Assembly (NCBI RefSeq): GCF_003002875.1
Contig: NZ_PVTH01000001.1
Location: forward strand, 248,001-312,000
DNA length: 64,000 nucleotides
Direction of reading: 5' to 3'
From: Arcticibacter pallidicorallinus
Lineage (GTDB): Bacteria > Bacteroidota > Bacteroidia > Sphingobacteriales > Sphingobacteriaceae
Shown here: positions 40,774-60,416 of the stretch, one piece after another
Layout: every line of letters begins with the position of its first letter
Numbering within the stretch: position 1 is the stretch's first letter
Made by a program: the position numbers and the translations under genes
Notes under the pieces: generated by a model
What the model was told of the DNA's origin: nothing
Database searches by the model: none
Seen by the model: only the letters and a program-made list of their open reading frames with translations

Positions 40774-41760
40774 ATGGCAAAAGTAGATAAGAAAGGCATA
40801 GTACGCGGAACAGCAGGTTCCGTAGTATATCGCGGTTACCGCGAATTGAACATCATCCAGGGGAAACCCCGCAAATTCGAACAGACCAGTGCCAGCATCC
40901 GGGCCTCCACGGAGTTTGGGCTTTCCAGTACCACGGCGGCAGTAATCAGGCAGGCCTTCGAGCCGGCCTACGTGCACCGGGACGGCGAGGCGGTCAGCCG
41001 CAGCACGCAGCTGGTGTATCGGGGTCTTCGGGGCAGCCTCACAGGAAGCGTTGGTCAGCGTGACCTGCATGATGCGGATCTGGAGAGCCTCATCGGGATG
41101 GACTTCAACATCAAAAGCCGGCTGAGCGAAGTGCTGCAGGTTAGCCAGCGGGTAGAGCGGGATGAAGAGGGTCGACTCAGCGTTTTCATGGGGGCTTTGA
41201 ACGCCAAAACCGACCTGAAGGTGCCCCTAAGCATCAGCAAACCGGTGAGCAAGTACAGGCTCCGTTTCAGTCTGATCGGTTTTAACTTCCGCAAGGAGTA
41301 TTATGAATATCTGGAAGTAAAGGATCTGGAATTCCGCTGGCAGGCTCAGCTGGAGGCCCGGGAAATCCGTTTTGAAACCCTGCCGGAACCCGATCAGCTG
41401 CTGATGCTCAGCGTGTCACTGCTGGCTTATAGCGAAACCCGGATGGAAGAAGGTTATGTATTGCTCAACAGCAAGGAGTTCAGTCCCTGCGCTATCATTG
41501 CTGCTTTCCACGCGGAAGAACCGGGAGAATATCCCGCAAGACCTGTAAATATGGAACTCAACGAGGCGCAACAAACACGGGGAGCGTCTATTCACAACAT
41601 GTGCTATGAGGGTAACAGGCTACTGCGGGATCAGGAACGGAGGAGCTTGAAAATGCTTGCGAAGACGACGACGATAACCACGAAGCGACTACCGAAAGAA
41701 GATGAAAATAAAGTGCATTTCCAGCCAGGGAAGCGGGTATCGTTTTCGTCCAGGTCATAG
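40774..41760 (+). CDS. Long DUF6266-like protein
   Basis: 328 residues, no signal peptide. The N-terminus (KKGIVRGTAGSVVYRGYRELNII, then PRKFEQTSASIRASTEFGLSS) follows the DUF6266 plan of a GxxGxVVxxxxxxxxxxR start and a basic segment with a Q/S-rich helix. The body is beta-rich. It is about 120 residues longer than the two 211-213 residue DUF6266 proteins at 45925 and 48055 and only distantly similar to them. It shares the 50-bp upstream element with the 45925 gene. The C-terminal 50 residues are basic. Role unknown; see the lysis-cassette finding. Confidence 0.65.
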   Translation: MAKVDKKGIVRGTAGSVVYRGYRELNIIQGKPRKFEQTSASIRASTEFGLSSTTAAVIRQAFEPAYVHRDGEAVSRSTQLVYRGLRGSLTGSVGQRDLHDADLESLIGMDFNIKSRLSEVLQVSQRVERDEEGRLSVFMGALNAKTDLKVPLSISKPVSKYRLRFSLIGFNFRKEYYEYLEVKDLEFRWQAQLEAREIRFETLPEPDQLLMLSVSLLAYSETRMEEGYVLLNSKEFSPCAIIAAFHAEEPGEYPARPVNMELNEAQQTRGASIHNMCYEGNRLLRDQERRSLKMLAKTTTITTKRLPKEDENKVHFQPGKRVSFSSRS

Positions 41761-42306: not shown

Positions 42307-42543
42307 GAGGCAAAAGGAAGAACATATAAAGGCGATTAAAATCAATTATAGTGTGATTTGTTGCGTTTTGCAGGACATTTCATCAGATTTCATCTACAAA
42401 AGTTCGTCCTACGTTCTCTTACCCGACCGTTAAGTAACAAGAAAACTTAATTACAGGTTAACAAAGAACTTGCGAACACTTTCCAGGCGACTTTTATTTT
42501 TATAAGGAGGAAATTTCTTTAATTGCTGTCCATACTAACCATT

Positions 42544-43959
42544 ATGGACGATCTCTCAAAAACCCTTCTTTATCAACCTCTTAATTCCGCCTTGTGCCTC
42601 AGAAAGCAGATAGTCGACAGAATTATCCTGCTGCGGGAATCTTTAGCTCCGGGCTCCGAAGTGCGCCTTCCTCCATCGCGATATCTCGCCAAAATTTACC
42701 GGACCTGCCATATTACCGTATATCACGCCTACAGGCGATTGAAAGAAAAAGGTATTATCATCGTAAAAGGCTCGCGAACCTATCTCGTGCCGCTGATTAA
42801 AGAGGAGATCTCCACAATTAACCAGTTTTCCAGCGCTCAGGAAGAGCCCGCCGGATACAGGCGGTTGGCGAGTTTCCTTCCCCCGAGCCTCGACGTTGCG
42901 ATCCTTGAAATGCGGGCAGAACCGAATCTGGGAACGATTAGCGATAAGATGCATAAAGCGGTCTACTCCAGAGCGAGAGGTAAGTTAGCGGGCGTTTGTT
43001 CCGAGAAAGTTCTTTCCGAACAGATCGTTAAAAAGCTTTATGCGCTCGGCCTGTACACGGGGATGGAGAATATTTTCATTCCGGGCAGAGGAACCGCCTT
43101 GAAAGCGGTGGCTGCCGCCATACTGGAGAGAGACGATCTGGTGGTGATGGAGAGCGAGCAGGACGCCTGTCCGTACACCATTTTTCGAAGCCTGGGTTGT
43201 GAGGTAGCTGTCACGGGCAGCGAAGAAGAGCACGGCATGGATATGGATGCGCTTCAGGAGATCTGCCGGAGCAGGAAAGTCAGGGCTGTATTTATCCGTC
43301 CAGACTCCTCCTGGCCTTTCGGGATGATCACCAGCGAGAGGAACCGCGACCGGCTGATTGAATTATCAAAAGCGTACAACTTTAGGATCATTGCGTATGA
43401 ATTTGAGTCGGAATACGCCATGACCAATCTGCCGCGCCGCTTATCGGTAAAGCAACATGCAGGCAGGGTGATCTTCGTGTCGGTGGTCAGCAGGGCGAGC
43501 CGCCTCTGGGAGCAGGCCGGATTTGTTGTTGCAGAGACAGGACTAGTGCGGGTATTAAAAGAGAACGACGCCTTGCTGGATGGACCCCGATGCCGGTCAA
43601 TGGATCAGATAGCCATTATCATGCACAAGAACGGTTCATTATGCACGGAAGCCAATAAGCTTATCCGCGGTCATTCCTCCAGAATCGAAACCATATCCAA
43701 TATATTGAAAGCAAGGCTTGCCAAAAGAGCCAGGGTCATTGAACCTTCGTGCGGCCGTTTCATCGTTATCCAACTCCAGCAAGCCATTCACGTGAAGCAC
43801 CTTGTTTCACTATCCGTTCACCAAAACCTGAATTATCATGAAAGAAACCATCACCTGAAAGAAGACCAGACGGTAAGCTGCCTCCGCATCGAATACACGT
43901 TATTCAATAAGGCAGAATGGGTAAACCTTGCGAATGCATTAACTGAAATATTATTATGA
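42544..43959 (+). CDS. MocR/GntR-type regulator with a degenerate aminotransferase domain
   Basis: 471 residues from ATG 42544; a TTG at 42523, 12 bp after an AAGGAGG sequence, is an alternative. The N-terminal 75 residues are a GntR winged helix (GSEVRLPPSRYLAKIYRT; HITVYHAYRRLKEKGII). The rest follows the fold type I aminotransferase of MocR proteins, but key PLP sites are changed: the FSK motif that holds the lysine reads VSRAS (Arg at about 317), and the usual HPSHQFPTG block reads RPDSSWPFGM. PLP binding is therefore doubtful. The stop overlaps the next gene's ATG (ATGA), so it leads the three small DNA-binding genes. Confidence 0.82.
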   Translation: MDDLSKTLLYQPLNSALCLRKQIVDRIILLRESLAPGSEVRLPPSRYLAKIYRTCHITVYHAYRRLKEKGIIIVKGSRTYLVPLIKEEISTINQFSSAQEEPAGYRRLASFLPPSLDVAILEMRAEPNLGTISDKMHKAVYSRARGKLAGVCSEKVLSEQIVKKLYALGLYTGMENIFIPGRGTALKAVAAAILERDDLVVMESEQDACPYTIFRSLGCEVAVTGSEEEHGMDMDALQEICRSRKVRAVFIRPDSSWPFGMITSERNRDRLIELSKAYNFRIIAYEFESEYAMTNLPRRLSVKQHAGRVIFVSVVSRASRLWEQAGFVVAETGLVRVLKENDALLDGPRCRSMDQIAIIMHKNGSLCTEANKLIRGHSSRIETISNILKARLAKRARVIEPSCGRFIVIQLQQAIHVKHLVSLSVHQNLNYHERNHHLKEDQTVSCLRIEYTLFNKAEWVNLANALTEILL

Positions 43960-44282
43960 TGAACAACCAAGTATCATCCTACAAGATGAAGAATCATCTG
44001 CTGTCTTTAAGCAGAAACGTTTTTAAAGCCGTCAACCTGTTTGACAGCCTGCTGTCGCAAACCTTCGTGATCCTGAGCGAGCTGCGGGAGATCAGGCAAC
44101 TATTGTTTGAGCAGAGGCCGGCCGGCGAAGAATTACGTGTTTTCTCGGTCGCCGAAGCCGCAGAAAAGCTGCATGTAAAGCCCAGGACCCTGCGGACCTG
44201 GGTAGCCCAAGGCAAGCTGACCTCCATACTGATCGGCCGAAAATTTTATTACAAAGTCTCAGAAATCCTCCCAAATCCCTGA
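43956..44282 (+). CDS. Helix-turn-helix (excisionase/MerR-type) protein, tandem copy 1
   Basis: 108 residues. An N-terminal helix (about 15-50, with ILSELREIRQLLFEQ) could be a short coiled coil. Residues 60-105 are an HTH_17-type domain: VFSVAEAAEKLHVKPRTLRTWV then LTSILIGRKFYYKVSE. Start codon overlaps the MocR-like stop by 4 bp. It is the first of three consecutive paralogues. Such domains occur in excisionases and in small regulators of mobile elements. No integrase is in the window. Confidence 0.8.
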   Translation: MMNNQVSSYKMKNHLLSLSRNVFKAVNLFDSLLSQTFVILSELREIRQLLFEQRPAGEELRVFSVAEAAEKLHVKPRTLRTWVAQGKLTSILIGRKFYYKVSEILPNP

Positions 44283-44285
44283 ATC

Positions 44286-44621
44286 ATGAAAACAAGCATA
44301 TTGAATATGAGCAGAAGTCTGTTCCAATCCGTCAGCATTATGGAAAGCCTGGTTGCGCGGGCATCGGACGTCCTTGCCGAGTTAAAAGAAATAAAAGCAC
44401 TTCTTCAGCAGCAGAACGAGCAGGGGCTGGATACCCGGCTGCTGACCCAGGAGGAAACCGCAGAGAAGTTAAGAGTGACCCTGCAAACGCTGTATAACTG
44501 GAAGCAGGCGGGCGTACTGCTACCTATCCTAATCGGGTCCCGCAGTTACTACAGGCTCTCCGACATTATCAAAAGCGGTATAAAAGCAAACGAAGATGAA
44601 GGACAGACAGATCAGCATTAG
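44286..44621 (+). CDS. Helix-turn-helix (excisionase/MerR-type) protein, tandem copy 2
   Basis: 111 residues, same plan as copies 1 and 3: N-terminal helix (VLAELKEIKALLQQQ) then HTH_17 domain (LLTQEETAEKLRVTLQTLYNWK then LLPILIGSRSYYRLSD). It starts 3 bp after the stop of copy 1. The recognition helix region (VTLQTLYNWKQAG) differs from copy 1 (VKPRTLRTWVAQG), so the copies probably read different DNA sites. The C-terminal tail is acidic. Confidence 0.8.
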   Translation: MKTSILNMSRSLFQSVSIMESLVARASDVLAELKEIKALLQQQNEQGLDTRLLTQEETAEKLRVTLQTLYNWKQAGVLLPILIGSRSYYRLSDIIKSGIKANEDEGQTDQH

Positions 44622-44883
44622 CCGCCATTCCTTTCAGGTCGTTCGTTCAGGCGAGCGGCTGCTGGCTCTGGCATTTGCCATTATATCCGAGCTGAGGGAA
44701 ATCAAAGAACTGCTGCGCATACAGAATGAGCGGGGAAACGATGCCAGGTTGTTTACGGTAGATGAGGCAGCAGAAAAAAAGAAAGTGCCCGTGCGCCTGA
44801 TGGCAGAGTGGGAAAAGGCAGGGAAGCTGCCGTCGGTACACCTGCTGGGTAAGCGTTATTACCAGGAAAAGGATCTGGAGTAG
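44596..44883 (+). CDS. Helix-turn-helix (excisionase/MerR-type) protein, tandem copy 3
   Basis: 95 residues, with N-terminal helix (IISELREIKELLRIQ) and HTH_17-like domain (LFTVDEAAEKKKVPVRLMAEWE then LPSVHLLGKRYYQEKD). Its start overlaps copy 2 by 26 bp. It is the most diverged of the three. A long inverted repeat follows at 44900-44955, probably ending the operon. Confidence 0.78.
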   Translation: MKDRQISISRHSFQVVRSGERLLALAFAIISELREIKELLRIQNERGNDARLFTVDEAAEKKKVPVRLMAEWEKAGKLPSVHLLGKRYYQEKDLE

Positions 44884-44986: not shown

Positions 44987-45452
44987 TTAATGCATTAAAG
45001 CTTCTTGTGTCAGCTTTGTAATCGCTTCTTCCGCTAGCTCATCTGTCAAACTTAAAGACGAACTAGTCAGTACAAGATGATCCTTGATATTCTCGGGCAG
45101 GTCGTTTAAGCATTTATCATCATCAAGAATTACGAATGCTTCAGAATGATTACCTGAATAATACCAACTTAAGATCTCATCCTTCCGGCTTAATTCACTG
45201 GAGTTTGTAAGAAGTCTATCAATACGATTTGCTCGGATATCTTTTCCTGAAGATCTCATTCCATTGAGTAGAATCATACTTGGATTTATGCGATGTGGTT
45301 AGTAGAATATTAGCTCCAGTCTCACTTATTATCCGTTTTAAAGCTTTTACAGCTTTAAAACTAAATACAGGGAATCCATCTGATAAAAACTCAGGGCGCT
45401 TCCAGGAAGTTCCAGGAACCATTACTCCGTCTATGTCTAATAAGATTAACAT
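44987..45452 (-). pseudogene. Frameshifted HAD-like phosphatase gene
   Basis: Two overlapping minus-strand frames together make one HAD-type protein. The first (from ATG 45450-45452) has the nucleophile motif LILLDIDGVMVPG and ILLTTSHKSKY. The second, in another frame, has RKDEILSWYYSGN and FVILDDDKCLNDL, the acidic motif. The break lies near 45239-45250 where the coding strand reads AGGAAAAGATATC; removing one A from the A-run would join IFRK to DIRANRIDRLL. It is either a real frameshift or a base-calling error. Its ATG overlaps the end of the 45446-45634 frame, so they form a pair. Confidence 0.7.
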
Positions 45453-45924: not shown

Positions 45925-46566
45925 ATGGCACAATTTAATCAAGGCGTCAATGGCGCATTTTCAGGAAAAGTAGGAAGTGTTATTGGTAGTAACTGGAGGG
46001 ACATCGATTACATGAGAGGTTTAGCAAAGAGGACTCCAAAGAATCCTACAGCCAAGCAACTGGCAGTACGAGCACGCTTCACGCTGTTGTCTCAATTCCT
46101 ATTGCTGGTGAAGAACGCAGTAGACAGGGGATTCTCCAGGCAGTACGATGGCCGGTCCACAGCCTTCAACCAGGCGTTCCGGGTCAATCAGGCAGCGCTG
46201 ATCGGAACAGAGCTGGATCCGCAGCTCGACTACACCCAGATCATTCTGAGCAAGGGGCTGACCCTGACAAAACCTTTCGGCTGTAAGCTTGGCGCAGGCC
46301 TGGACGGATCGGTGAAAGTAAGCTGGCAGATGTTCAACGGAGGTTTAGAAGACCGCTCAAAGGACAAGATCACGATTGTTGTTTACTGTCCCGAGAAGAT
46401 GGAAGCTCTTGTATCCATGGAGGAATACCTTCGTGAGGACCAGGTAGCAGAGATCGAAGTTCCGTCGAACTGGTCAAGCACCACGGTGTACGCATACCTG
46501 TTCGCCACAAGCGAGAAAGGTGAGAACTCCGCTACTGCGTATGCAGGAGGGCTGCCGATCCTGTAA
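45925..46566 (+). CDS. DUF6266 family protein
   Basis: 213 residues, no signal peptide. It has the family opening FSGKVGSVIGSNWRDIDYMRG, then the basic helix KRTPKNPTAKQLAVRARF (about 36-53). The C-terminal half is beta-rich (VKVSWQMFNGG; KITIVVYCPEKMEALVSMEE; TTVYAYLFATSEKGENS) and may be an Ig-like sandwich. Function unknown. It is clearly paralogous to the protein at 48055. A strong terminator follows, and then a holin-like, endolysin and spanin cassette. It carries copy 2 of the 50-bp element upstream. Possibly the cargo of the cassette; that is inference. Confidence 0.85.
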   Translation: MAQFNQGVNGAFSGKVGSVIGSNWRDIDYMRGLAKRTPKNPTAKQLAVRARFTLLSQFLLLVKNAVDRGFSRQYDGRSTAFNQAFRVNQAALIGTELDPQLDYTQIILSKGLTLTKPFGCKLGAGLDGSVKVSWQMFNGGLEDRSKDKITIVVYCPEKMEALVSMEEYLREDQVAEIEVPSNWSSTTVYAYLFATSEKGENSATAYAGGLPIL

Positions 46567-46595
46567 GGTCGGATAAGTTCGGGTAAGATTGCCAG

Positions 46596-46625
46596 AAGGC
46601 GGAGGGTCGATCCTCCGCCTTTTTT
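46596..46625 (+). terminator. Strong Rho-independent terminator between DUF6266 and the lysis genes
   Basis: AAGGCGGAGG (46596-46605) and CCTCCGCCTT (46612-46621) form a perfect 10-bp GC-rich stem with a 6-nt loop, followed by a T-run to 46625. It lies 30 bp after the DUF6266 stop and 25 bp before the holin-like gene. Read-through would give much less lysis protein than DUF6266, or a separate promoter must serve the cassette. Confidence 0.92.
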
Positions 46626-46649
46626 ACTAACAATTAAACTAATTAGAAA

Positions 46650-47012
46650 ATGGAATTTTTAGATCTGCGGCCGGTAAGTACCGCCCGCTATAACGAACCG
46701 ATCAGCATAGCCCTTTTGCTCGTATTATTTTTAGCCTTCCCCTGGCTGTGCCGCCATGTGGATGTAACCTCCGCAGCCCTGGATCCCGGTGCGCTCAGTG
46801 CGGTGATCATGGCCATCTTGTCCTTCCTGCTTTTCAAGGCCGTCACCTGGCGGGTGATGAAGGCGATTTGGCCGGTGTTCACGGTGTATTCAGAATGCGA
46901 TTTCGAGTATGAATTCCGGGGACTGGCAGCCAGAGAGAAAGTGATGATCTACCTTGGATTCTATCTCCTGCTGCTGGCGGGTTTCGTGATGACACTCATG
47001 GCCCTGTTATGA
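46650..47012 (+). CDS. Holin-like small membrane protein
   Basis: 120 residues with three hydrophobic segments, about 18-34, 47-68 and 97-119, and charged loops (YSECDFEYEFRGLAAREK between the second and third). No enzyme motif. Size, topology and position directly before an endolysin gene fit a class I-type holin, which would form inner membrane holes for endolysin release. The call rests on context, as holins lack shared sequence. It overlaps the endolysin gene by 4 bp (ATGA). Confidence 0.6.
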   Translation: MEFLDLRPVSTARYNEPISIALLLVLFLAFPWLCRHVDVTSAALDPGALSAVIMAILSFLLFKAVTWRVMKAIWPVFTVYSECDFEYEFRGLAAREKVMIYLGFYLLLLAGFVMTLMALL

Positions 47013-47515
47013 AAGCGGGCCTGATGGTGTTGCTCAGCCTTTGGGGGATCTATACGGCTGAGATTGGTATCCGCGAACAAAGCGGGAAGAATGACGGGGA
47101 ACGGGTGGAGATGTATCTCGCCTATGTCGGGCTGAAGAAGGGGAACCCCTGGTGCGCAGCCTTTGTGTGCTGGTCATTGGGACAGGCGAAGATCCGGAAT
47201 CCGCGTTCAGGCTGGAGTCCGGATCTGTTTCCGGCAAAGAAGGTTTGCTGGCAGCGGTCAAGGATTCTTCAGATGAAGCCCGTTGATGGAGGAGCAGCGA
47301 GACGTCCCCGCAAAGGGGATGTCTTTGGGATCTACTTCCCCGATAAGAAGCGGATCGCGCATGTAGGCTTTGTCGATTCCTGGGACGATAAGTATGTGAT
47401 TACGGTGGAGGGAAATACGAATGAAGCCGGGAGCAGGGAAGGGGATGGGGTGTACCGCAAGCGGAGGCTGGTTGGTTCCATTTACCAGGTAGCCAGATGG
47501 GAGGAGGCGCTATGA
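47009..47515 (+). CDS. CHAP-type endolysin (peptidoglycan amidase/endopeptidase)
   Basis: 168 residues. Residues 30-165 read as an NlpC/P60-CHAP-like cysteine hydrolase: GNPWCAAFVCW with nucleophile C49, RIAHVGFVDSW with H118, and VEGNTNEAG with N136 as the likely third residue. Phage and TIGR02594-type endolysins share this order. The N-terminal LMVLLSLWGIYTA (5-17) is mildly hydrophobic and small-residue rich, as in signal-anchor-release endolysins, or it may be a plain signal. It overlaps holin-like and spanin genes by 4 bp on both sides, so the three are translationally coupled. Confidence 0.8.
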   Translation: MKAGLMVLLSLWGIYTAEIGIREQSGKNDGERVEMYLAYVGLKKGNPWCAAFVCWSLGQAKIRNPRSGWSPDLFPAKKVCWQRSRILQMKPVDGGAARRPRKGDVFGIYFPDKKRIAHVGFVDSWDDKYVITVEGNTNEAGSREGDGVYRKRRLVGSIYQVARWEEAL

Positions 47516-48009
47516 AAAAGGTTTTTTGTGTTTTTTCGGGATTTTTGATTTTGTTTTTTGGGGGAGGTTGTTCTTTGTTGAGGAAGGAGGTGGTGAGCAG
47601 GCAGGATAGTGTTCGAACGGATAGCCGGAAGGCTTCTCTGGATTGGAAGGTGGATTCGGTGGATTGGGCGAGTAGGGTGTTTACGTATAGCGACTCGAGC
47701 GGGGCGGAGTTTGAGGTGGAGATTGTGCCGTTGGGTCCTTTTAGTTTTTCGGCGAAAGGAGGGTTTGCAGGTTCGGCGAGTGTGCTGAGGTTACGGGGGA
47801 AAACGCAGAGCACTATTCGTTCGGCAGATTCCAGCAGCCGGCAGCAGCATGTTCAATCTACAGGATCGCAGAAAGAAGATACGAAAGCGCGGACAGAGAA
47901 GCTACAAAAGGAGACGGTAAAGAAGAACGATAAGAGCCTTTGGTGGGTGATCGCATTATTGTCGATCGGCTCATTAGTACTATTCTTCATCTACATGCGG
48001 AAGATCTGA
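47512..48009 (+). CDS. Spanin-like lipoprotein with C-terminal membrane segment (u-spanin type)
   Basis: 165 residues from ATG 47512, which overlaps the endolysin stop (ATGA); an earlier in-frame ATG at 47497 would add five residues before the signal. It has a lipoprotein signal with FFGGGC (Cys20) and a C-terminal membrane segment (about 143-161, WWVIALLSIGSLVLFFIYM) followed by basic MRKI. The middle is a beta-like part then a charged, Gln/Lys-rich helix (110-140). A lipid anchor in the outer membrane plus an inner-membrane tail is the design of single-molecule spanins that fuse the membranes in lysis. The gene is unusually poor in C at its 5' end. Confidence 0.65.
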   Translation: MKKVFCVFSGFLILFFGGGCSLLRKEVVSRQDSVRTDSRKASLDWKVDSVDWASRVFTYSDSSGAEFEVEIVPLGPFSFSAKGGFAGSASVLRLRGKTQSTIRSADSSSRQQHVQSTGSQKEDTKARTEKLQKETVKKNDKSLWWVIALLSIGSLVLFFIYMRKI

Positions 48010-48054
48010 TATGATCATGAAATCAAATACTAACCATTTAAAAAGATCGAAATT

Positions 48055-48690
48055 ATGGGCATTCTAAAGCACGGCCTGTTTGGGCCACTTTCCGGAAAGG
48101 TCGGAAACACTGTCGGTAGCAGCTGGAGAGGTATTCACTACGTGAGAAGCCTGTCTAAAAAAACGCAAAAAGAGCCTAGCGCAAAACAGCTGGCCGCAAG
48201 GGCACGTTTCGCAGCGGTAAATAAATTTTTACTGCCTTTAAAGGATGTAATTGAACGAGGATATTCCAATCAGGATCTGCGACGAGCTACTGCTTTAAAC
48301 CTGGCGGTTAAAGAGAATTACGCAACCTTAACCGGAACCGATGAGCATCCAGGACCCGATTATTCAAAGCTCGTGCTCAGCAAGGATAAGATGGTTTGCA
48401 GACCTTTGGGTTGTAAGATTGCCGCGGGCACTCCGGGGCGTGTAAAAATAAGCTGGCAGGGGGGCGATTTTCTTGGAGACCGTGTTTATGACAGGGCAAC
48501 TGTTGTGATCAGTTGCCCCGAGAAGGAAGAGGTGATCGTGAGTATGGACCAATTTTTCCGAGGGGATCAGTTAGCAGATCTGGAGATCCCATCCGGGTGG
48601 TTGAACGTTACGATTTACGGATATGCTTTTATGACAGATTATCTCGGCAGGAACTCCAGAACGGCATTTGCAGGTTCGTTGGAAGTATAA
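48055..48690 (+). CDS. DUF6266 family protein, second copy
   Basis: 211 residues, same plan as the 45925 protein: LSGKVGNTVGSSWRGIHYVRS (LSGK preceded by FGP), KKTQKEPSAKQLAARARF, then GRVKISWQGGDF, ATVVISCPEKEEVIVSMDQFF and VTIYGYAFMTDYLGRNSRTAFAG. The two align along their length with moderate identity, so the duplication is old. It begins 45 bp after the spanin-like gene with no 50-bp element and may be co-transcribed with the cassette. The next gene is convergent. Confidence 0.85.
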   Translation: MGILKHGLFGPLSGKVGNTVGSSWRGIHYVRSLSKKTQKEPSAKQLAARARFAAVNKFLLPLKDVIERGYSNQDLRRATALNLAVKENYATLTGTDEHPGPDYSKLVLSKDKMVCRPLGCKIAAGTPGRVKISWQGGDFLGDRVYDRATVVISCPEKEEVIVSMDQFFRGDQLADLEIPSGWLNVTIYGYAFMTDYLGRNSRTAFAGSLEV

Positions 48691-49678: not shown

Positions 49679-50482
49679 ATGTTAAAAAGCAGAGCCTACG
49701 ACAAATTATGCCTCATTATTGCTCTTTTTGGGGTGTTAATTCTGTCCTCTTGTGTTGTAACAAAAAAGTCTGTTTACTTTACAGACATACCTGATACAGC
49801 GGCTTATCGAAAGATTATTCCCGCAGAGTTCAAAGAACCGGTTATTCAGCCGGACGACTTACTCAGTATTACAGTACAGACAATAGACCCAGCTACTTCG
49901 GCGTCGGTTAATCAGGTTTCCGCTATGCCAGCTATAGGTGCTAGTTCCGCGTCCACTGTCGGTTCCCAGACGATAAGTGGATTTCTTGTGGATAAGAATG
50001 GAACCGTGACTATGCCGATGTTGGGGAGTATGAAGCTCGCAGGCTTGACAACTTATCAAGCAAGGGATTTAATTCAGACAAAAGCGTCTGAATTCTTCAA
50101 AGAGCCAAATGTCCAAGTGAGGTTCGCAAACTATAAGATAACAATTATCGGCGAAGTTTCACGACCGGCGACATATACCTTGCCAAATGAAAAGGTTACT
50201 CTCCTTGATGCTATTGGATTGGCAGGCGACCTCACAATTTACGGGCGACGGGAAAATGTGTTATTAATCCGAGATAATAATGGGACTAAGGAGTTTACCC
50301 GTTTTAACTTAAATTCAACGGATATCTTTAAATCACCTTACTTTTTTTTGAGACAAAATGACGTGATTTATGTAGAGCCGGGCAAAGCAAAGGTAGCGGC
50401 GAACAATGCTGCGAGGACTCAGACGTTAGCGATCGTTGGGTCAATTTTATCCGTTTTGATTGTCGCTCTGAGTCGGTTATAG
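49679..50482 (+). CDS. Polysaccharide export lipoprotein (Wza-like)
   Basis: 267 residues. Lipoprotein signal VLILSSCVVTKKS (Cys25). The Poly_export domain (about 55-140: IQPDDLLSITVQTID; GFLVDKNGTVTMPMLGSMKLAGLTTYQARDLI) is followed by an SLBB domain (ITIIGEVSRPATYTLPNEKVTLLDAIGLAGDL) and a C-terminal membrane helix (TLAIVGSILSVLIVALSRL). It should form the outer-membrane exit channel. It is shorter than E. coli Wza, as usual in Bacteroidota. First gene of the operon; the Wzc-like gene starts 14 bp later. Confidence 0.9.
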   Translation: MLKSRAYDKLCLIIALFGVLILSSCVVTKKSVYFTDIPDTAAYRKIIPAEFKEPVIQPDDLLSITVQTIDPATSASVNQVSAMPAIGASSASTVGSQTISGFLVDKNGTVTMPMLGSMKLAGLTTYQARDLIQTKASEFFKEPNVQVRFANYKITIIGEVSRPATYTLPNEKVTLLDAIGLAGDLTIYGRRENVLLIRDNNGTKEFTRFNLNSTDIFKSPYFFLRQNDVIYVEPGKAKVAANNAARTQTLAIVGSILSVLIVALSRL

Positions 50483-50496
50483 GAAGATCGTTCTAT

Positions 50497-52872
50497 ATGA
50501 ACATTCATAAAGTAAATACGAGTAATAGTTTGATGAACAAAGAAGAGAATAGAGATATAATCCAGTTCTTAGGAAAGATAACTGCGAATTGGATATGGTT
50601 TTTGATAAGTGCTGGTATAGGTATACTAATAGCCTTTCTGTATGCTAGGTACCAGACCCCGGTCTACAAAATATCTGCAAAACTGCTCGTGAACGACGAG
50701 AAAAAAGGCGGGCTCGCTAGCCAGGGTGACCTTCTCGATTTGGGAGGCATTTTGGGAGCGAAGAGTTCTGTTGATAATGAAGCTGAGGTTTTGAAAACTC
50801 GGTATCTAATGGAACAAGTTACAAAGGAACTAAATGCTAACGTAACATACTATCATAAGGGGCGCATAAAAGATGTGGAGATCTATCAGGCGCCTTTCGA
50901 AGTGGTTCCACTTAGCATCGGAGATTCGGTTATTGCTACTTCCTTTGAATTGAAACAAATAGCTCCGTCCAAGATAGAGGTATCAAACGAGAGTTTTGTA
51001 AAGACGGTAAACTTCGGGGAACCTTTTGTTGTCGACGAGATGGGCAAGATTGCAATTGTTAGAAATCTTGACGTACCGTTTAAGAACAAGAAGTATCTCT
51101 TCAACATCACGTCAATAGATAATAAGGTCGCTGAACTGATGAGAAATTTTCAGGTTTCAGTTGTGAACAAACAAGTTAGCGCAATTGACCTTAGCTTTAA
51201 CTATCCGTTGCCACGAAAGGGTGAGGATTTTTTGAGAACATTGATCGAAAAGTATGTCGAAGGAAATAAAGAAGACAAAAATATCATCGCGGACAGTACT
51301 ATTGCGTTTATTGACAACCGTTTGATGCTTGTGGGCGACGAATTGGGCACTATCGAGAGTAAGATTCAGACATTCAGACAAAATAGCAGAATCGCTGATA
51401 TCGATGCGCAATCAAAATTGCTAATAGAGAATTCAAGTGAATATGTAAATAGTCTTGCAGAAATTGAAACACAGCTTAATATCCTCGCATCTTTGGAAGG
51501 CTATCTTCGAGATGCGAATGCGACTAAGAGAGTTTTACCAAGTGCTGTTTTACCAGGCGATAACGTGTTTAATAGTCTGATCGAAAAGTATAACTCAATT
51601 CTCTTAGAACGCGATAGGCTTTCACTTTCATCAACAGAAACCAACCCATATGTCCAAAATCTCGACCAGCAGATTTCTAATTTACGTAAGGATATGTTGG
51701 CAAACATTTCTAATACCAAAGCTTCTCTAACTATTAGCGGTAATGAGTTAAGAAAGAGAACGGCTCAAGCGGAAGGAGAAATCAAAAGAGTTCCTGCAAC
51801 ACAGCGAACCTATTTGGATATGGCCAGACAACAGCAGATTAAGCAGGAGCTGTACGTCTTTCTGCTACAGAAACGTGAGGAGACCGCAATTTCGAAGACA
51901 TCGAATATCTCGAATTCAAAAGTGATTGATCCACCCAAGGCGAATCCTAAACCCATCAGTCCAAAAAGGATAATAATTCTCGTATTTGGTTTAGCTTTTG
52001 GCCTTGTTTTACCTTTTGCTATATTATATTTAAGAGATCTTTTAAACACTAATATTGTGACGAAGGATGATGTTGTAAGTCGTACTAGCATCCCGATAAT
52101 AGGAGAAATCAGCAAAAGTAAAGAGACCGAAACCATTGTGGCAAGACAGCACTCTCGATCTTCGATTTCAGAGCAATTTAGGGGTCTGCGCACGAATCTC
52201 TCGTTCTTTCTCAAGCCTGGTGAAAAGACTATTTTGCTGACCTCAAGCATGTCCGGAGAGGGAAAGTCGTTTGTTTCACTCAACCTAGCAAACGTTTTGG
52301 CGATTTCAGGCAAGAAAGTTGTAGTAATGGAGATGGATTTAAGAAAGCCGAACATCTCAAACAAACTAAGCATTTCAGGAGAATATGGTTTTACTAACTA
52401 CATTATTTCGCCGAACGTTGAACCGGCTTCAGTAGTTTTACCTTCTGGCATTCATGAGAATCTTTTTATTGTTACTTCGGGTCCTATTCCGCCGAATCCT
52501 TCAGAAACGATTTTAGCATCCAGGACTGATGACCTAATGGAATTTTTGAACAAAACGTTCGATTATATAATAGTTGATGCTCCTCCCGTAGGTCTTGTTA
52601 CTGATGCCCAGCTTCTATCGAAGTATGCAGACTTGACGTTATATGTCGTAAGGCAGAATTATACAAACAAGAAACAGCTCGCAATTGCCAACGAATTAGA
52701 CATAAACAAGCGAATGACCAAAATGGCTATACTTGTTAATGATATAAAGTTGGAAGGTGGCTATGGTTATGGTTACGGCTACGGTTATGGGTATGGCTAT
52801 GGAACTTATGGAGATCAGGATCAGCCCAAGGGTTTTGCTGCATATCTAAAGAACGCGATAAAATCAAAATAA
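50497..52872 (+). CDS. Wzc-like polysaccharide co-polymerase and tyrosine autokinase
   Basis: 791 residues. Wzz domain flanked by membrane helices (about 31-50 and 494-516), with a long periplasmic coiled-coil region. The cytosolic BY-kinase follows: Walker A at about 580-590 (SSMSGEGKSF), Walker A' VVVMEMDLRKPN, Walker B YIIVDAPPVGLVTDA (about 690). The C-terminus is a run of Gly-Tyr pairs (about 755-770, YGYGYG), the tyrosine cluster that is phosphorylated. It controls chain length and export together with the Wza-like protein. It spans 14 bp after the exporter gene and 22 bp before the flippase. Confidence 0.92.
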   Translation: MNIHKVNTSNSLMNKEENRDIIQFLGKITANWIWFLISAGIGILIAFLYARYQTPVYKISAKLLVNDEKKGGLASQGDLLDLGGILGAKSSVDNEAEVLKTRYLMEQVTKELNANVTYYHKGRIKDVEIYQAPFEVVPLSIGDSVIATSFELKQIAPSKIEVSNESFVKTVNFGEPFVVDEMGKIAIVRNLDVPFKNKKYLFNITSIDNKVAELMRNFQVSVVNKQVSAIDLSFNYPLPRKGEDFLRTLIEKYVEGNKEDKNIIADSTIAFIDNRLMLVGDELGTIESKIQTFRQNSRIADIDAQSKLLIENSSEYVNSLAEIETQLNILASLEGYLRDANATKRVLPSAVLPGDNVFNSLIEKYNSILLERDRLSLSSTETNPYVQNLDQQISNLRKDMLANISNTKASLTISGNELRKRTAQAEGEIKRVPATQRTYLDMARQQQIKQELYVFLLQKREETAISKTSNISNSKVIDPPKANPKPISPKRIIILVFGLAFGLVLPFAILYLRDLLNTNIVTKDDVVSRTSIPIIGEISKSKETETIVARQHSRSSISEQFRGLRTNLSFFLKPGEKTILLTSSMSGEGKSFVSLNLANVLAISGKKVVVMEMDLRKPNISNKLSISGEYGFTNYIISPNVEPASVVLPSGIHENLFIVTSGPIPPNPSETILASRTDDLMEFLNKTFDYIIVDAPPVGLVTDAQLLSKYADLTLYVVRQNYTNKKQLAIANELDINKRMTKMAILVNDIKLEGGYGYGYGYGYGYGYGTYGDQDQPKGFAAYLKNAIKSK

Positions 52873-52894
52873 TATATAAATCATATTAGTCTTT

Positions 52895-54424
52895 ATGCGT
52901 TCTGCAAGCAAAGTCATGCTGAATACCTGCGTCCTTTATGGCAGGATGCTACTTACGGTTGGCGTGTCTTTATATACCACCCGTTTGGTGCTTAATGCTC
53001 TCGGTCATACGGATTACGGAATTTTCAACTTGGTGGCTGGAGTCATTGCAATGTTGTCATTTTTGAACACCGCGATGGCTACCTCTACTCAACGATTTTT
53101 GTCGTTCAATCAGGGCAAGAACGACCGGGCAATGCAACGCAATATCTTTATCAATAGTTTGTTTTTGCATGTCATAATAGGTGGTGTTATAGTAGTGGTA
53201 CTTGAAATGGCTGGATTAATTTTGTTCGCGGATTTTCTAAATATACCTCCTGACCGAATTGAAGCGGCTAAAACTATATTTCATTATATGTCGATTACCG
53301 TGTTTTTTTCGGTGATAAGTGTTCCGTTCGTAGGGATTTTGACATCTCATGAGAATATGATTTGGATAGCCGTCGTTAATATTACGGAAACGACTCTTCG
53401 ATTAGGAATTGCATGGGCCTTATTGTACATAGATAGCGATAAACTAATAGTCTATGGGATTTTGAATGCCGGAATATCCGTTATAAGTCTAGTCCTATAT
53501 GGAACCTACTGCTTTAATAAATATTCCGAATGTGCATTTAAGGGCCCAAAAATCATAAGTCGCGGGCTTTTGAGGAAATTGACGTCCTTTGCAGGTTGGA
53601 ATCTTTTCGGAACTGTTTGCGGCCTTAGTCGAACTCAAGGTATAGCAATCTTGCTAAACCTGTTCTTAGGTGCAGTTGTTAATGCAGCTTATGGTATTGC
53701 GAATCAAGTGGCTTCTCAGCTTAATTTTTTCTCAGCAACATTATTGAGAGTTCTTAACCCGCAAATCATGAAAAGCGAAGGTGCGAACGATCGATCGCGA
53801 ATGTTAAGATTGTCGATGATGGCGAGTAAGTTTGGTTTTTTTCTCTTAGCCTTCATCGCGGTTCCTTGCATTTTCGAAATGGAATCAATCTTAATTGTTT
53901 GGCTTGGTGATGTTCCCGATGGAGCAACCGTTTTTTGTATTCTGAATTTGGTTGGATTGTTAGTAAACCAGTTAACTATTGGCCTCCAATCAGCGATTCA
54001 GGCTACAGGAAGGATTAAGGTCTACCAAACGCTAATAGGGACCGTGTTGTTGTTGAACTTGCCTATAGCTTATCTATTATTACATTCTGGAAAAGCTGCG
54101 TATACAGTATTAGTAAGTTTTATTCTCATTGAAGCGGTAGCCTGTACCTTAAGGTTAGTAATATTAAAGAGTTTGGCTGGGCTATCAATCAACACGTTCG
54201 TGAACAGAGTTTTCATGCGTGAAATTATTCCCCTTTGTTGTGCGGTTCTTGTTTGCTTCCTCGTTACGTCTAACTTTGAAGGTGAGGGCAGATTTATTAT
54301 TACTATCGTCTGCTCTTCTCTTGTGTTTATAGTTACCGTTTATTTCCTGGGTTTATGTCAGGACGAAAAAATATTAGTTGATCAGGTGTTTTGTCGCTTA
54401 CAGAAGCGTGTATTCAGTTCATAG
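52895..54424 (+). CDS. Oligosaccharide flippase (Wzx-like)
   Basis: 509 residues with about 12-14 hydrophobic segments, of the MOP/PST family (TTRLVLNALGHTDYGIFNLV; AMATSTQRFLSFNQGKND; GWNLFGTVCGLSRTQG). It would flip the lipid-linked repeat unit across the inner membrane. Second integral membrane protein of the operon, together with the Wzy polymerase at 56657 defining a Wzx/Wzy-dependent route. Start 22 bp after the Wzc-like stop. Confidence 0.9.
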   Translation: MRSASKVMLNTCVLYGRMLLTVGVSLYTTRLVLNALGHTDYGIFNLVAGVIAMLSFLNTAMATSTQRFLSFNQGKNDRAMQRNIFINSLFLHVIIGGVIVVVLEMAGLILFADFLNIPPDRIEAAKTIFHYMSITVFFSVISVPFVGILTSHENMIWIAVVNITETTLRLGIAWALLYIDSDKLIVYGILNAGISVISLVLYGTYCFNKYSECAFKGPKIISRGLLRKLTSFAGWNLFGTVCGLSRTQGIAILLNLFLGAVVNAAYGIANQVASQLNFFSATLLRVLNPQIMKSEGANDRSRMLRLSMMASKFGFFLLAFIAVPCIFEMESILIVWLGDVPDGATVFCILNLVGLLVNQLTIGLQSAIQATGRIKVYQTLIGTVLLLNLPIAYLLLHSGKAAYTVLVSFILIEAVACTLRLVILKSLAGLSINTFVNRVFMREIIPLCCAVLVCFLVTSNFEGEGRFIITIVCSSLVFIVTVYFLGLCQDEKILVDQVFCRLQKRVFSS

Positions 54425-54448
54425 TTAATTTTATTATATAGTATATAT

Positions 54449-55456
54449 ATGAAAAAAGTGTTAAAGAAGATACTTCCGTCTAGTTTTAGAAAGGCGTATC
54501 GATCTAACAAGACGAGTTACAGAATATTTTCTGACTATTTTGAAGACTATCGAAACTACAGGAAGTACTCTGCATCACTTGATCTAAAAAGTAAGGAGAT
54601 GATACAGGCGTACCTAATTAAGGAATATCATGCAGTAGAGAAAGGGCTTGCATTGCCTATTCCTAGGCCAGGTTTTGGTATCGAACGTATTACTGAGCTG
54701 ATAAGTAAGCTGCAAATGTATATTCAGACTTATGGCAAGGACAGTATTTCTGACATTTCCGTTTCTACTCTGCAGGAGTATCTAGCGTTCGATAAAAAGC
54801 ATAACAAAGAGACTTCGCCATTAGTGCCATTGATCGAAAACTTGATACAAGCTTATAATCAAAGTGATCTAGAGTCTGTCGGCGGTACCCTTCCAATGAA
54901 TAGGCAAGATTTGTTGCCACTATTAGATTTCGATTTCGATTCATTTTTTAAATCTCGTCACAGCATTAGGGATTTTGCCGAAGAGCCAGTTGATACTAAG
55001 ATTATTCTTGATACAATCGATACGGCAAAGTATGCCCCGTCGGTATGCAACCGTCAAGCATGGAAAGTGTACGTGATCGAACATGATAATTATGCATTGA
55101 AGAAGGCTCTGCTTAACGTTCAAAACGGGAATAAGGGCTTTGGTGATAAGATTAGTTCGTTAATCGTAGTCACAGGGAAGTTATCGTCTTTTTTTTCTTA
55201 CGAAAGATATCAGGTTTACATTGATGGTGGGATGTTCGCAATGTCAATCGTACTAGGTCTACACTCTAAAGGATTGGCTACATGTTGTTTAAATACAAGT
55301 TATAATTCGTCAATGCGTGAGGCGTTTAATAATGCCTTAAAGACCGACGATGATTGCGTTCCAATTATGTTTATTGCCGTTGGACATTTAAAGGACAATT
55401 ATAAAGTCGCTAACTCAAAGAGGAGGCCACTATCTGAATTAGTTGAAGTAAGGTAA
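54449..55456 (+). CDS. Nitroreductase-family protein in the polysaccharide operon
   Basis: 335 residues, with a non-standard N-terminal helical region (1-160) before a nitroreductase domain. FMN-contacting motif SRHSIRDFAEEPV at about 169-181, then APSVCNRQAWKVYVI, DGGMFAMSIVLGLHSKGLATCCLN and VPIMFIAVGHLKD near the end. Such proteins recur inside Bacteroidota capsule loci, but their reaction is not established; a redox or sugar-modifying role is inference. 24 bp after the flippase gene. Confidence 0.82.
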   Translation: MKKVLKKILPSSFRKAYRSNKTSYRIFSDYFEDYRNYRKYSASLDLKSKEMIQAYLIKEYHAVEKGLALPIPRPGFGIERITELISKLQMYIQTYGKDSISDISVSTLQEYLAFDKKHNKETSPLVPLIENLIQAYNQSDLESVGGTLPMNRQDLLPLLDFDFDSFFKSRHSIRDFAEEPVDTKIILDTIDTAKYAPSVCNRQAWKVYVIEHDNYALKKALLNVQNGNKGFGDKISSLIVVTGKLSSFFSYERYQVYIDGGMFAMSIVLGLHSKGLATCCLNTSYNSSMREAFNNALKTDDDCVPIMFIAVGHLKDNYKVANSKRRPLSELVEVR

Positions 55457-55475
55457 ACGTTAATCAAATTAAAAC

Positions 55476-56630
55476 ATGATGCACAAAGTTAGGGTAGGTA
55501 TAATGACATTTTGGTGGACGCATTCGAATTACGGACAAGTGCTTCAAGCATATGCGTTGATGACGTTTTTAAAGAACCTGGGTTACGATGTTTTTTTCAT
55601 TAGATATCAGGGTATTGGCGATATAAAAAAGAAATCCATATTAAAGCGCTTGCTCACATTCAATTTAAAGGCTTTCGTAAACCGTAGAATCATCTCTTAC
55701 AAGCTGGCAAAAGAGAGCAAATTAACACCAAGACGCTTTGAAGATTTTAAGGCTAAATATTTAACTTATAGCGCAGAACAGTATGCGTCGCTTAAGGAGC
55801 TACAGAACAACCCGCCGATAGCAGACGTCTATATTGCAGGAAGTGATCAAGTATGGAATAACACCTTTTCACCATCATGTGAACCGTACTTATTAGGGTT
55901 TGGAGACGAAAATATCAAAAGAATAGCGTACGCTGCTAGCTTCGGACAAAAGCGGTTATCTGATACGACGAAAGATTTGTTTATTAGGAATATAGGCAGA
56001 TTTGATGCAGTTAGCGTTAGGGAATTTTCAGGCTTGGAGATTTGTAAGGATGTTGGCTGCGATAACGCAATCTGGCTTCCTGACCCCACATTTTTATTAG
56101 ATAAGGCGATCTGGTCATCATTATACCAGAGCTCTTCACCTGTGATGAATAACGTTTCGAGTATTTTTATATACACCTTAGGAAATAGCTTAATAAAGAA
56201 CAGGAGTAAGTATATTGATCATGTTTCCAGTCTGCCGAATGTTACGATTTCCCATGTATCGTCAAACTATGATTTTTCAGGGAACAGCTTCCCAACTATT
56301 GAGGAGTGGCTCAAATTGATTGATGATTCGCAATTTGTAATTACCAACTCATTTCATGGTATGGTTTTTTCTATAATCTTGAACAGAAATTTTGTTATTC
56401 TGCCTAATACTGGGGCAGCAACAGGGATGAATGAGCGCATTACCAGTCTTTTAGAAAAGCTCCAACTTGAGGATAATATGATGAGCGATTACGATTCGGA
56501 GAAGCTAAACTTGTTGATGAAAAAGCAGATAGACTGGGAGTTTGTTAATAAATCAATCTCAATATGGCGAAGTGAGGCCGAGGCGTTTTTAATTGAAAGT
56601 CTTCCAGCGCCAAAAGCACCCCTTGTTTAG
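55476..56630 (+). CDS. Polysaccharide pyruvyl transferase family protein
   Basis: 384 residues, GT-B-like ketal pyruvyl transferase (PF04230). Motifs: SNYGQVLQAYALMTFL (about 17-32), IAGSDQVWNNTF (about 121-132), IWLPDPTFLLD and TNSFHGMVFSIILNR (about 290-304). It should add pyruvate ketals from phosphoenolpyruvate to a sugar of the repeat unit, giving an acidic polysaccharide. The Met at residue 2 (55479) is an equally possible start. Located between the nitroreductase and Wzy genes. Confidence 0.9.
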   Translation: MMHKVRVGIMTFWWTHSNYGQVLQAYALMTFLKNLGYDVFFIRYQGIGDIKKKSILKRLLTFNLKAFVNRRIISYKLAKESKLTPRRFEDFKAKYLTYSAEQYASLKELQNNPPIADVYIAGSDQVWNNTFSPSCEPYLLGFGDENIKRIAYAASFGQKRLSDTTKDLFIRNIGRFDAVSVREFSGLEICKDVGCDNAIWLPDPTFLLDKAIWSSLYQSSSPVMNNVSSIFIYTLGNSLIKNRSKYIDHVSSLPNVTISHVSSNYDFSGNSFPTIEEWLKLIDDSQFVITNSFHGMVFSIILNRNFVILPNTGAATGMNERITSLLEKLQLEDNMMSDYDSEKLNLLMKKQIDWEFVNKSISIWRSEAEAFLIESLPAPKAPLV

Positions 56631-56656
56631 TTCAGTAGTGTACCAGCGTTATATGC

Positions 56657-58033
56657 TTGCGAATGGATAGAATATTTCTAATAATATTATGCGTAATTGG
56701 GCTTGCTAGGTGGTTATCGGCGGTAAAACAAGGAAAGCGAGCAAAGCATTTACTAATTAGCTGTTTTGTTCAGACGCTGCCTTTTGGATATGGATTTACT
56801 TTGTACTCTTTCATGACAGATGAACTACTTGGTCAATTTGGGAATGGAATAAGGTTAGAAGTGCCATTTTTGTTTTTTTTACTGTTCTCCGTAATCGGCT
56901 ATTATCGGCTTCCCCTGAAAGCATTTAGTTTCAAATCCAATCCTTGGTTTTACTTATTTGTTGGACTTTGCTTCGTGTCTTTTTTTAATCCCATAAATCC
57001 GTTTCCTGTTTCCGCTTTGGTGCCTTTATCGTTCGTCACTCAAATGCTATTACTGTTAAAGGTAATCGAGCGAAATTTTACGCGAGATCAAATTTATAGA
57101 GGAATATTCGACGGTCTAACCATAACCATTACGATACAATTTTTCCTTGCAATATGTTATCCGGTATTAGGCATTGAAGCGTTAGCATCGTTTTTTAAAG
57201 GTGAGGCTGCAATGCACTGGGCAGAAAGGCGAGAGGGGTATAGATCAGCAGTCGGTATATTCACACATCCAGGCCACTTGGCGTTGTATTGCTTAATTTC
57301 AGTTGTCTTTTTTCTAGCAAACTATCTAAATCATTACGAGAAAAAGCTGTCCACTGCTGTTATTGGCATGAGTTTGTTTGTCCTATTTCTAACCTACTCT
57401 CGCACTACTTATATAGTGTTGATGGCGGTTGTGATATTACTGTGGGTGATTTTCAGGCAAGGGAAGGGGGTTTTTACTTTTAAAAACATACTAATTTTCG
57501 CGATTGGTTTCTCATTTTTACTGTTTGTGTTTTATCTGAGCCCACTGAGTGAGATGTACTTGAAAAGTGATTCTGAAGAACAATTTGATAATCGGTTCAT
57601 TCATGGATTATTAGGGTACGAAATTTGGCGACAGTCGAAGCTAATAGGGATCGGGGTTAATTCTCATGTATATTATTTGGCCCATAAATTAGTTAGCGAT
57701 CCTTTCGGAGGTAAGGTGACGATGGATTTCTTTACATCAAATCCCATTCATAACATTCACGTAATAATTGCTGCTGAAGTGGGAATTCTGGGATTGTTGA
57801 CGTGGCTAAGTTATGTGATCTCCAAGGTTCATCGCCTTTCAAAACTCTGCTCGACAAGTAACTCGTATATCAATATAATTAACATGACATTCGTAGGAGT
57901 CTTGACATCTTTGTTTTTATATGGATTCTTTGGGTGGTCTCCATTTGATACATCAATATTTGGTACGGCGATTTTCATCGGCTATTTCGCGACTACCAAT
58001 ACAAATGACGAAAAGGGAATAGAAGTTTATTAG
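56657..58033 (+). CDS. O-antigen/exopolysaccharide polymerase (Wzy-like)
   Basis: 458 residues, about 11 hydrophobic segments, with a large outer loop near residues 185-205 (HWAERREGYRSAVGIFTHPGHLALY region) and another near 305-350 (SEEQFDNRFIHGLLGYEIWRQS). This matches the Wzy_C/O-antigen ligase-polymerase layout with RS..FxHPx..A. It should join repeat units in the periplasm. The start at 56657 lies 26 bp after the pyruvyl transferase stop. Confidence 0.85.
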   Translation: MRMDRIFLIILCVIGLARWLSAVKQGKRAKHLLISCFVQTLPFGYGFTLYSFMTDELLGQFGNGIRLEVPFLFFLLFSVIGYYRLPLKAFSFKSNPWFYLFVGLCFVSFFNPINPFPVSALVPLSFVTQMLLLLKVIERNFTRDQIYRGIFDGLTITITIQFFLAICYPVLGIEALASFFKGEAAMHWAERREGYRSAVGIFTHPGHLALYCLISVVFFLANYLNHYEKKLSTAVIGMSLFVLFLTYSRTTYIVLMAVVILLWVIFRQGKGVFTFKNILIFAIGFSFLLFVFYLSPLSEMYLKSDSEEQFDNRFIHGLLGYEIWRQSKLIGIGVNSHVYYLAHKLVSDPFGGKVTMDFFTSNPIHNIHVIIAAEVGILGLLTWLSYVISKVHRLSKLCSTSNSYINIINMTFVGVLTSLFLYGFFGWSPFDTSIFGTAIFIGYFATTNTNDEKGIEVY

Positions 58034-58098
58034 GAATTATCACTGTCCATGATGTCTGACTTTGAGAGGGACATATTGGTTAGTCTTCATATTATATT

Positions 58099-59280
58099 AT
58101 GACTGAAAAGACAAAGGTTGTTTATTACACCCATGTATATTATTTAGATGCAGCGTTGGAATACATCAAACAAATAAGTTTGACGCATAGTGTATACGTT
58201 TTTATTGAGCTCGGTAAAGAAGGGCTTAAGGCAAACATTTTTGATTTGGATATTGACCTTTCAGCGTATCCTCCACTTGTATCCTTTTATGACGTAAAAA
58301 GTAAATGGAATATTTCGGAGCTAGAGTCATATTTTGTAAATACCAAAGAGACTTATTTTTTGACGTATGCTAATCCCCAAAGCCTTTCTCTTCTAGCTTT
58401 TAAACGAGCGATAAATTTCGTCTCTCAATTGCGACGTATTCAGCCAGACTACGTACATTTCGAAGATTTGTCTTTAAGACAAGTTTGGATGCTGCCATAC
58501 CTTAGCCTTAATCCTCAAAAGCTGGTTATAAATGCTCATGATCCGCTTCCGCATTCCGGCGAAAGTATGATTAAACGTAAGCTTCTGAAGAGCGCTTTTT
58601 TTTTCTTCACAAAAAAATATGTTTGTTTCTCAGAATTCAGCAAAAATCAACTGAGAGGTATAGTTTCGAAAAAGAGCGATGTGTACTTGATAAAGCTTCT
58701 ACCGTATACTGTTTATTCAAACTATCAACCGTCCTTAGAGGTAATGGATCGCAATATTACCTTTGTAGGCCGGCTTTCGCCTTATAAAGGAATCGATTTA
58801 TTTCTTAATGCCATAAAATTGCTCGGAAGGGAAGATAGGGTCGGATCATACGTTGTAGCAGGTAAACGCATTGGCTCTTATGATCCTGGTTTTGCAAAAT
58901 TTACATCAAAATCGTTGCAGGTCATTGATAAACATCTTTCTAACGACGAACTAGTAAAAATCATTTTAAATTCTAAGCTAATAGTTTGCCCCTATCTTGA
59001 TGCAACACAAAGCGGCGTTATTATGACTGCTTACGCGCTGAACAGACCCGTTCTGGTAACTCCTGTGGGAGGGCTTCCTGAATATGTACAAAATGGTGTG
59101 ACGGGCTTGATTATGCATGATGTAGACACCCAGGCGCTAATCAAGAGTTTGGAGTTTTTTGAGCGCCATGAAACTGACTTTTCTGATATGTCCTTATCAA
59201 TCAAAGAATGGAGAAAACGCGCAGTTCGACAGAATAATGAGATTATAGAAAGTATTTATAAAAAACGTAAAGAACAATGA
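58099..59280 (+). CDS. Glycosyltransferase family 4 protein
   Basis: 393 residues, GT-B. N-terminal half with YYTHVYYLDAALEYI and VHFEDLSLRQVWMLPYLSL; the C-terminal half with NITFVGRLSPYKGIDLFLNAI and the nucleotide-sugar region PYLDATQSGVIMTAYALNRPVLVTPVGGLPEYV (about 295-330; the first Glu of EX7E is replaced). It should transfer a sugar to the growing repeat unit at the cytosolic face. Its stop overlaps the next GT gene by 4 bp. Confidence 0.88.
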   Translation: MTEKTKVVYYTHVYYLDAALEYIKQISLTHSVYVFIELGKEGLKANIFDLDIDLSAYPPLVSFYDVKSKWNISELESYFVNTKETYFLTYANPQSLSLLAFKRAINFVSQLRRIQPDYVHFEDLSLRQVWMLPYLSLNPQKLVINAHDPLPHSGESMIKRKLLKSAFFFFTKKYVCFSEFSKNQLRGIVSKKSDVYLIKLLPYTVYSNYQPSLEVMDRNITFVGRLSPYKGIDLFLNAIKLLGREDRVGSYVVAGKRIGSYDPGFAKFTSKSLQVIDKHLSNDELVKIILNSKLIVCPYLDATQSGVIMTAYALNRPVLVTPVGGLPEYVQNGVTGLIMHDVDTQALIKSLEFFERHETDFSDMSLSIKEWRKRAVRQNNEIIESIYKKRKEQ

Positions 59281-60392: not shown

Positions 60393-60416
60393 TATGAGCA
60401 CTATAAGCGGACGCAT

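Follow-up and report, generated by a model that had tools for sequence, protein, structure and literature searches.

In the genome of Arcticibacter pallidicorallinus (Bacteroidota; Sphingobacteriaceae) a row of genes combines two members of DUF6266, a family of unknown function, with a putative holin, an endolysin and a putative spanin. It covers positions 45925-48690 of the window, i.e. of the whole stretch of 64,000 nucleotides that was analysed (contig NZ_PVTH01000001.1, positions 248,001 to 312,000 of the forward strand), to which all coordinates below refer. Our preferred reading, to which we assign a probability of about 0.52, is that this cassette represents a chromosomal, phage-derived lysis unit working like a type 10 secretion system (T10SS) and releasing the DUF6266 protein (D) or, at other loci, a protein of a second family here named F. 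Such lysis genes, acquired long ago from viruses, stand beside genes for small two-part proteins in many Bacteroidota, often at several places in one genome, and controlled bursting of a small number of cells may release these proteins.

Genes of the cassette

All genes of the cassette are located on the plus strand. The first one, D1 (45925-46566), is a DUF6266 protein (PF19781, 7.2e-28, 97.9 bits; curated cut-off 23.4) and the last one, D2 (48055-48690), is a second member of this family (PF19781, 9.3e-19, 68.2 bits; same cut-off) with 47% identity to D1. Between them are found H (46650-47012), a putative holin with three hydrophobic and presumably transmembrane (TM) segments, E (47009-47515), a CHAP endolysin with the residues C49, H118 and N136 that matches phrog_9589 (4.6e-18) and, above the curated cut-off, PF05257 (1.2e-6), and finally S (47512-48009, start codon ATG at 47512), a lipoprotein with a C-terminal TM segment and the predicted topology of a unimolecular spanin (u-spanin). 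The reading frames overlap by four bases (ATGA) at both the H/E and the E/S boundary. These five genes and the overlaps of the three middle ones had been claimed in an earlier note on this DNA and are present exactly as described there. The terminator that it placed after D1 is plain in the letters too, though an automated terminator scan did not list it: direct reading reveals a hairpin at about 46596-46625 on the plus strand, GGCGGAGG-GTCGAT-CCTCCGCC-TTTTTT, in the gap between D1 and H. Since similar hairpins occur in only 4 of 25 gaps between D or F and H at other loci, this terminator is no general feature. In the window it divides D1 from H; the linkage of D or F to lysis genes recurs elsewhere.

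The active-site residues named in the earlier note hold up in an alignment of E with 24 relatives, where H118 and N136 do not vary and more than 90% of the sequences retain C49, at least one alignment row starting past this position. No relative of E with a solved structure was found by sequence. Unimolecular spanins carry an N-terminal lipoprotein signal together with a C-terminal TM segment (PMC6139136). In the window S an N-terminal hydrophobic segment leads to a weak lipobox (GGGC at residues 17-20) and a single C-terminal TM segment extends over residues 142-160 according to hydropathy. Both features are present in 30 of 49 S homologues, and weak matches of S to Rz/spanin profiles were also obtained.

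The genes of this unit are under purifying selection. In related pairs the ratio of non-synonymous to synonymous substitution rates (dN/dS) is mostly below 0.3 for D, F, H and E, with values of 0.12-0.29 for E (eight pairs) and 0.05-0.07 for F (two pairs). Constraint on S is weaker, with one pair reaching 0.61. Two D pairs with 22-25% identity are not orthologues and are therefore uninformative on selection.

Recurring linkage of lysis genes with DUF6266 or F

Gene maps were obtained with our own open reading frame caller and with profiles built for this analysis, and the resulting counts vary with thresholds. The sampled genomes belong mostly to one order and share common ancestry, so the counts do not represent independent events. 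Relatives of E were found in 27 of 100 related genomes, often in multiple copies, and an E match at 1e-20 is present in 114 of 300 genomes sampled from the order, again often several times. Among 60 genomes searched for DUF6266, a D gene is located within 5 kb at 20 of 56 E loci, compared with 0.48 expected from gene density. The recurring association of DUF6266 with lysis-type genes, which the earlier note had named as a check of its reading, is found, and it occurs across genera. E loci of this sample that lack DUF6266 come mostly from two genomes, bacterium A37T11 (G024) and G008, and in nearly all of their mapped loci F is located between E and S. The genome of A37T11 alone contains 22 E-type matches, and most of the mapped ones are partnered by F.

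In a wider survey genome contigs were scanned with the E alignment alone, which gave 80 loci; a recognisable E gene was called in 75 of them. Scored by similarity of their neighbours to viral contigs, 7 of these were assigned to phages and 68 were not. Within 3.5 kb of E the 68 non-phage loci contain DUF6266 (32 loci), F (25), never both, or neither of them (11), the last group including some contig ends and loci resembling phage fragments. The 7 phage-scored loci contain no DUF6266, and the single F call among them is a multi-FN3 lipoprotein. At least two partner families are exchangeable, with F taking the place of DUF6266 in 25 loci. A second sample comprised 20 loci from 14 single-contig genomes, which were selected for their E match and contig number without prior inspection of the neighbouring genes. 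Here D, H and E follow each other in this order at 18 loci, with S called after E in 15 of the 18, and an upstream gene of the putative regulator type X (see below) was called in 13 loci. One of the two exceptions has only S and E and the other shows a phage-like surrounding gene order.

The position of D or F relative to the lysis genes is variable, namely before H, between H and E, or after E or S. Such nearly constant adjacency in variable positions could also be expected of lysis regulators, e.g. antiholin-like or timing proteins that restrain H until a signal arrives and are not cargo. This explanation appears rather improbable, because D has no TM segment, D and F are unrelated in sequence and many D copies stand alone, some of them in genomes without any E match.

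Phage descent and separation from phages

Viral contigs of IMG/VR encode relatives of E with up to 63% identity that are usually preceded by H and, mostly in the case of the closer E relatives, followed by S. Around these viral loci large virion-type genes are found, as well as an extra small gene with TM or coil segments upstream of H. None of 80 IMG/VR viral loci contains DUF6266, and two F matches there are multi-FN3 lipoproteins and not F. The assumption that DUF6266 is itself a phage or plasmid gene was rejected, as it gave no match in phage and plasmid collections and none in one viral-contig scan; F was likewise rejected as such a gene after no match in phage and plasmid collections.

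The phylogenetic tree of E has no known root and contains several weak inner branches. In it the labels D, F and phage require five changes, and the phage sequences form one group (branch support 86), the only other members of which are unlabelled loci. Among 124 flank proteins of sampled D/F loci regulators, SusD, FecR and similar proteins were found, and the listed families (25 of 52) include no head, tail, portal or terminase protein. As a control, 40 flank proteins of phage loci yielded head, tail sheath and portal families. The earlier note had proposed the domestication of a phage lysis cassette, with no prophage structural module in the vicinity. No such module appears among the listed families of the sampled flanks, and domestication is well supported by the homology with H-E-S of phages, the E tree, these flanks and the linkage with D across genera. 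As judged from these comparisons, H-E-S outside phages constitutes a separate conserved chromosomal unit of phage descent, and this conclusion is well supported. A prophage remnant with lysis genes kept by chance would share the phage origin of the module, but it is extremely unlikely in view of partners and gene order conserved across genera, low dN/dS, intact active-site residues, the separation in the E tree and the lack of phage structural genes among the families listed for the sampled flanks.

Partner proteins and their exchange

The AlphaFold model of D1 (predicted local distance difference test, pLDDT, 93.6) consists of an N-terminal part of strands and helix and a C-terminal FN3 fold, with FN3 matches on residues 112-213. 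The model of F is less sure overall (predicted template modelling score, pTM, 0.48) but likewise shows an FN3 match in its C-terminal part. By hydropathy most copies of D and F have neither a signal peptide nor a TM segment. A single sequence family comprising both was rejected, as no profile similarity exists between them; since the FN3 fold is common, its sharing proves no shared function. For D no significant relative with a solved structure was found. An uncharacterised protein of 288 amino acids from virus sp. ctQiC1 (BFVD A0A8S5RM31) aligns with the D model over its length (TMq 0.47) and may be a relative of the P280 proteins described below.

A second phage cell-wall family, DUF5675, which is annotated as transpeptidase-like in some phage records, is found beside D in 9 loci. 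At other chromosomal loci DUF5675 is preceded by F or by a member of a third family named C3, and it is often followed by two small proteins. C3 is related by profile match to P280, a family of about 280 amino acids whose genes precede some lone D genes. D shows no real match with C3 and only a weak N-terminal match with P280. Three units of C3, DUF5675 and small proteins in one genome (L290, L292 and L293 in G009) are 88-89% alike over approximately 1.9-2.5 kb within different surroundings. A mobile element with fixed ends was rejected here: the pairwise ends differ and no terminal repeat was seen in the stretches read, no systematic repeat search having been made.

Exchange of partners is most evident in two assemblies of Pedobacter glucosidilyticus (L225 and L228), which are 98% identical over 10.7 kb from inside H onwards. 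Some 120 bases after the start of H the identity rises abruptly from background level to almost 100%. The proteins E and S are 97% and 88% identical, compared with 22% for the aligned D and 30% for X. For the D of L228 the closest relative (70%) is encoded in a different cassette of this species. In this one clear case partner and regulator have changed with the lysis module constant. A second pair (L236/L237) has similar H and E and unlike D with more rearrangement, and in a third (L224/L233) the cassette has diverged beside an upstream flank that is 96% identical.

The exchange of partner and regulator in L225/L228 and the divergence of the cassette in L224/L233 resemble the turnover of conflict systems, and many paralogues occur per genome. 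Both would suit programmed self-destruction in defence or competition, through death of the carrier (abortive infection) or release of an antagonistic protein, with D or F together with X as sensor, trigger or recognition part. We consider this unlikely, as PADLOC gave nothing beyond weak helix-turn-helix (HTH) matches and no immunity gene or toxin domain was recognised. A defence system was rejected for want of PADLOC support.

Putative upstream regulators and neighbouring genes

The earlier note omitted several genes upstream of the cassette, all on the plus strand. X1 (43956-44282) comprises an N-terminal helical stretch and an HTH_17 domain (Pfam, 2.7e-9) and is a putative regulator; its tandem paralogues are X2 (44286-44621; HTH_17, 8.8e-6) and X3 (44596-44883; 1.5e-4). 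They are preceded by M (42523-43959), a regulator of the MocR/GntR type with an aminotransferase-like domain (NCBIfam PdxR-type, 1.7e-24, under the model cut-off; Pfam GntR, 4e-4), relatives of which are found near some other cassettes. A member of the P280 family, related by profile to C3 as well, is encoded at 40774-41757, as revealed by alignment with the 280-amino-acid genes preceding lone DUF6266 genes, and its membership of the unit is uncertain. Of 57 D/F cassettes, a subset of the same 68 non-phage loci, 35 have a gene of type X upstream in the same orientation, and 3 further matches occur elsewhere in those loci. On the minus strand at 44987-45452 two overlapping reading frames are observed, the upstream one of which begins like a HAD-type hydrolase; they may represent a gene broken by a frameshift.

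Directly after the cassette a polysaccharide export gene set follows (49679-62876), and a similar neighbour follows the cassette at a locus of the same genus (L078). A general link with polysaccharide operons was rejected, as the neighbour counts across loci did not bear it out. It could be supposed that a polysaccharide matrix receives DNA and FN3 proteins from the lysis of few cells. The adjacent exopolysaccharide export genes at these two loci would agree with it, and FN3 folds are common in adhesive proteins. Elsewhere the neighbours are varied (SusD, FecR, regulators), so the association with polysaccharides is not general and matrix building seems quite improbable.

Proposed mechanism

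According to the preferred reading of a T10SS-like unit, the upstream HTH_17 protein, in some loci together with the MocR-type regulator, would set the timing of expression. D, or F elsewhere, would accumulate in the cytoplasm, because it has no export signal. H, as presumed holin, would then disturb the inner membrane, E would cleave the peptidoglycan and S, anchored in both membranes, would disrupt the outer membrane, so that D would be set free by the bursting cell, presumably one of a minority, and could act outside. Release of D by lysis, which the earlier note had also proposed for a subset of cells, would be the simplest reading. It is consistent with the biology of T10SSs, which are described as clusters of holin, endolysin and spanin genes that lie outside a phage and have a cargo coupled to them (PMC10847048).

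Several observations weigh against this mechanism. The strongest one against a strict cargo role is the absence of any E relative within 5 kb of 63 of 83 D clusters; furthermore, one genome of the same genus (G005) contains 7 D genes and neither an E nor a DUF5675 match. Because most D clusters lack a nearby E and some genomes lack any E match, D is independent of a local cassette, and away from cassettes it may act alone or be set free in another way. In D neither an enzymatic domain nor a known binding function was seen, and no profile of known holins or spanins matched H or S strongly. A hydrophobic segment is present at the N-terminus of many E relatives, and a large-hole holin may therefore be dispensable for E. 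The window cassette lacks the small gene found before H in phages. Finally, a non-lytic mode has been argued for the T10SS of Salmonella (PMC13284979).

In a wider and more tentative version, which we regard as possible yet doubtful, the loci would form a modular family of domesticated lysis units in Bacteroidota. A constant phage-derived lysis module would be combined with partners (DUF6266, F, C3/P280) and fitting regulators that are exchanged through recombination. Controlled lysis would then free FN3 proteins that differ from strain to strain and serve recognition or competition. If the proposed mechanism is true, controlled lysis would be a common trait of these bacteria and not a rarity of few enterobacteria, since E homologues occur so frequently in the order and often in multiple copies. 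DUF6266 would obtain a testable role. In addition, nature would provide lysis modules with interchangeable partners, in which cargo, regulator and lysis can be examined separately. In the literature no paper naming DUF6266 and none linking type 10 secretion with Pedobacter was found, most subscription journals being outside the search.

Comparison with known systems

By gene content and phage descent the cassette fits the genetic description of a T10SS, the roles of holin and spanin being predicted from topology and phage synteny. With the systems of Serratia (chiWXYZ) and Yersinia entomophaga (YenLC) it shares a row of holin-like, endolysin and spanin-type genes outside a prophage, descent from phage lysis genes, putative regulators nearby and a candidate cytoplasmic cargo. 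In contrast with them it contains a CHAP enzyme and a single gene of u-spanin topology instead of a pair of i-spanin and o-spanin, has D or F in the same row and no known enzyme or toxin as cargo, and is found in Bacteroidota in many copies per genome. The lysis modules of tailed phages of Bacteroidota have homologous H, E and S in the same order, but they possess the small gene before H and structural genes, and neither D nor F. S resembles unimolecular spanins such as T1 gp11 in its lipoprotein signal and C-terminal TM segment, whereas it shows no detectable sequence match to curated spanins and its lipobox in the window is weak. The DUF5675 phage proteins offer a parallel, as their chromosomal copies also stand beside D, F or C3, often with two small proteins thereafter; their enzyme family, transpeptidase-like by annotation, is however unrelated to E, and no spanin was seen with them.
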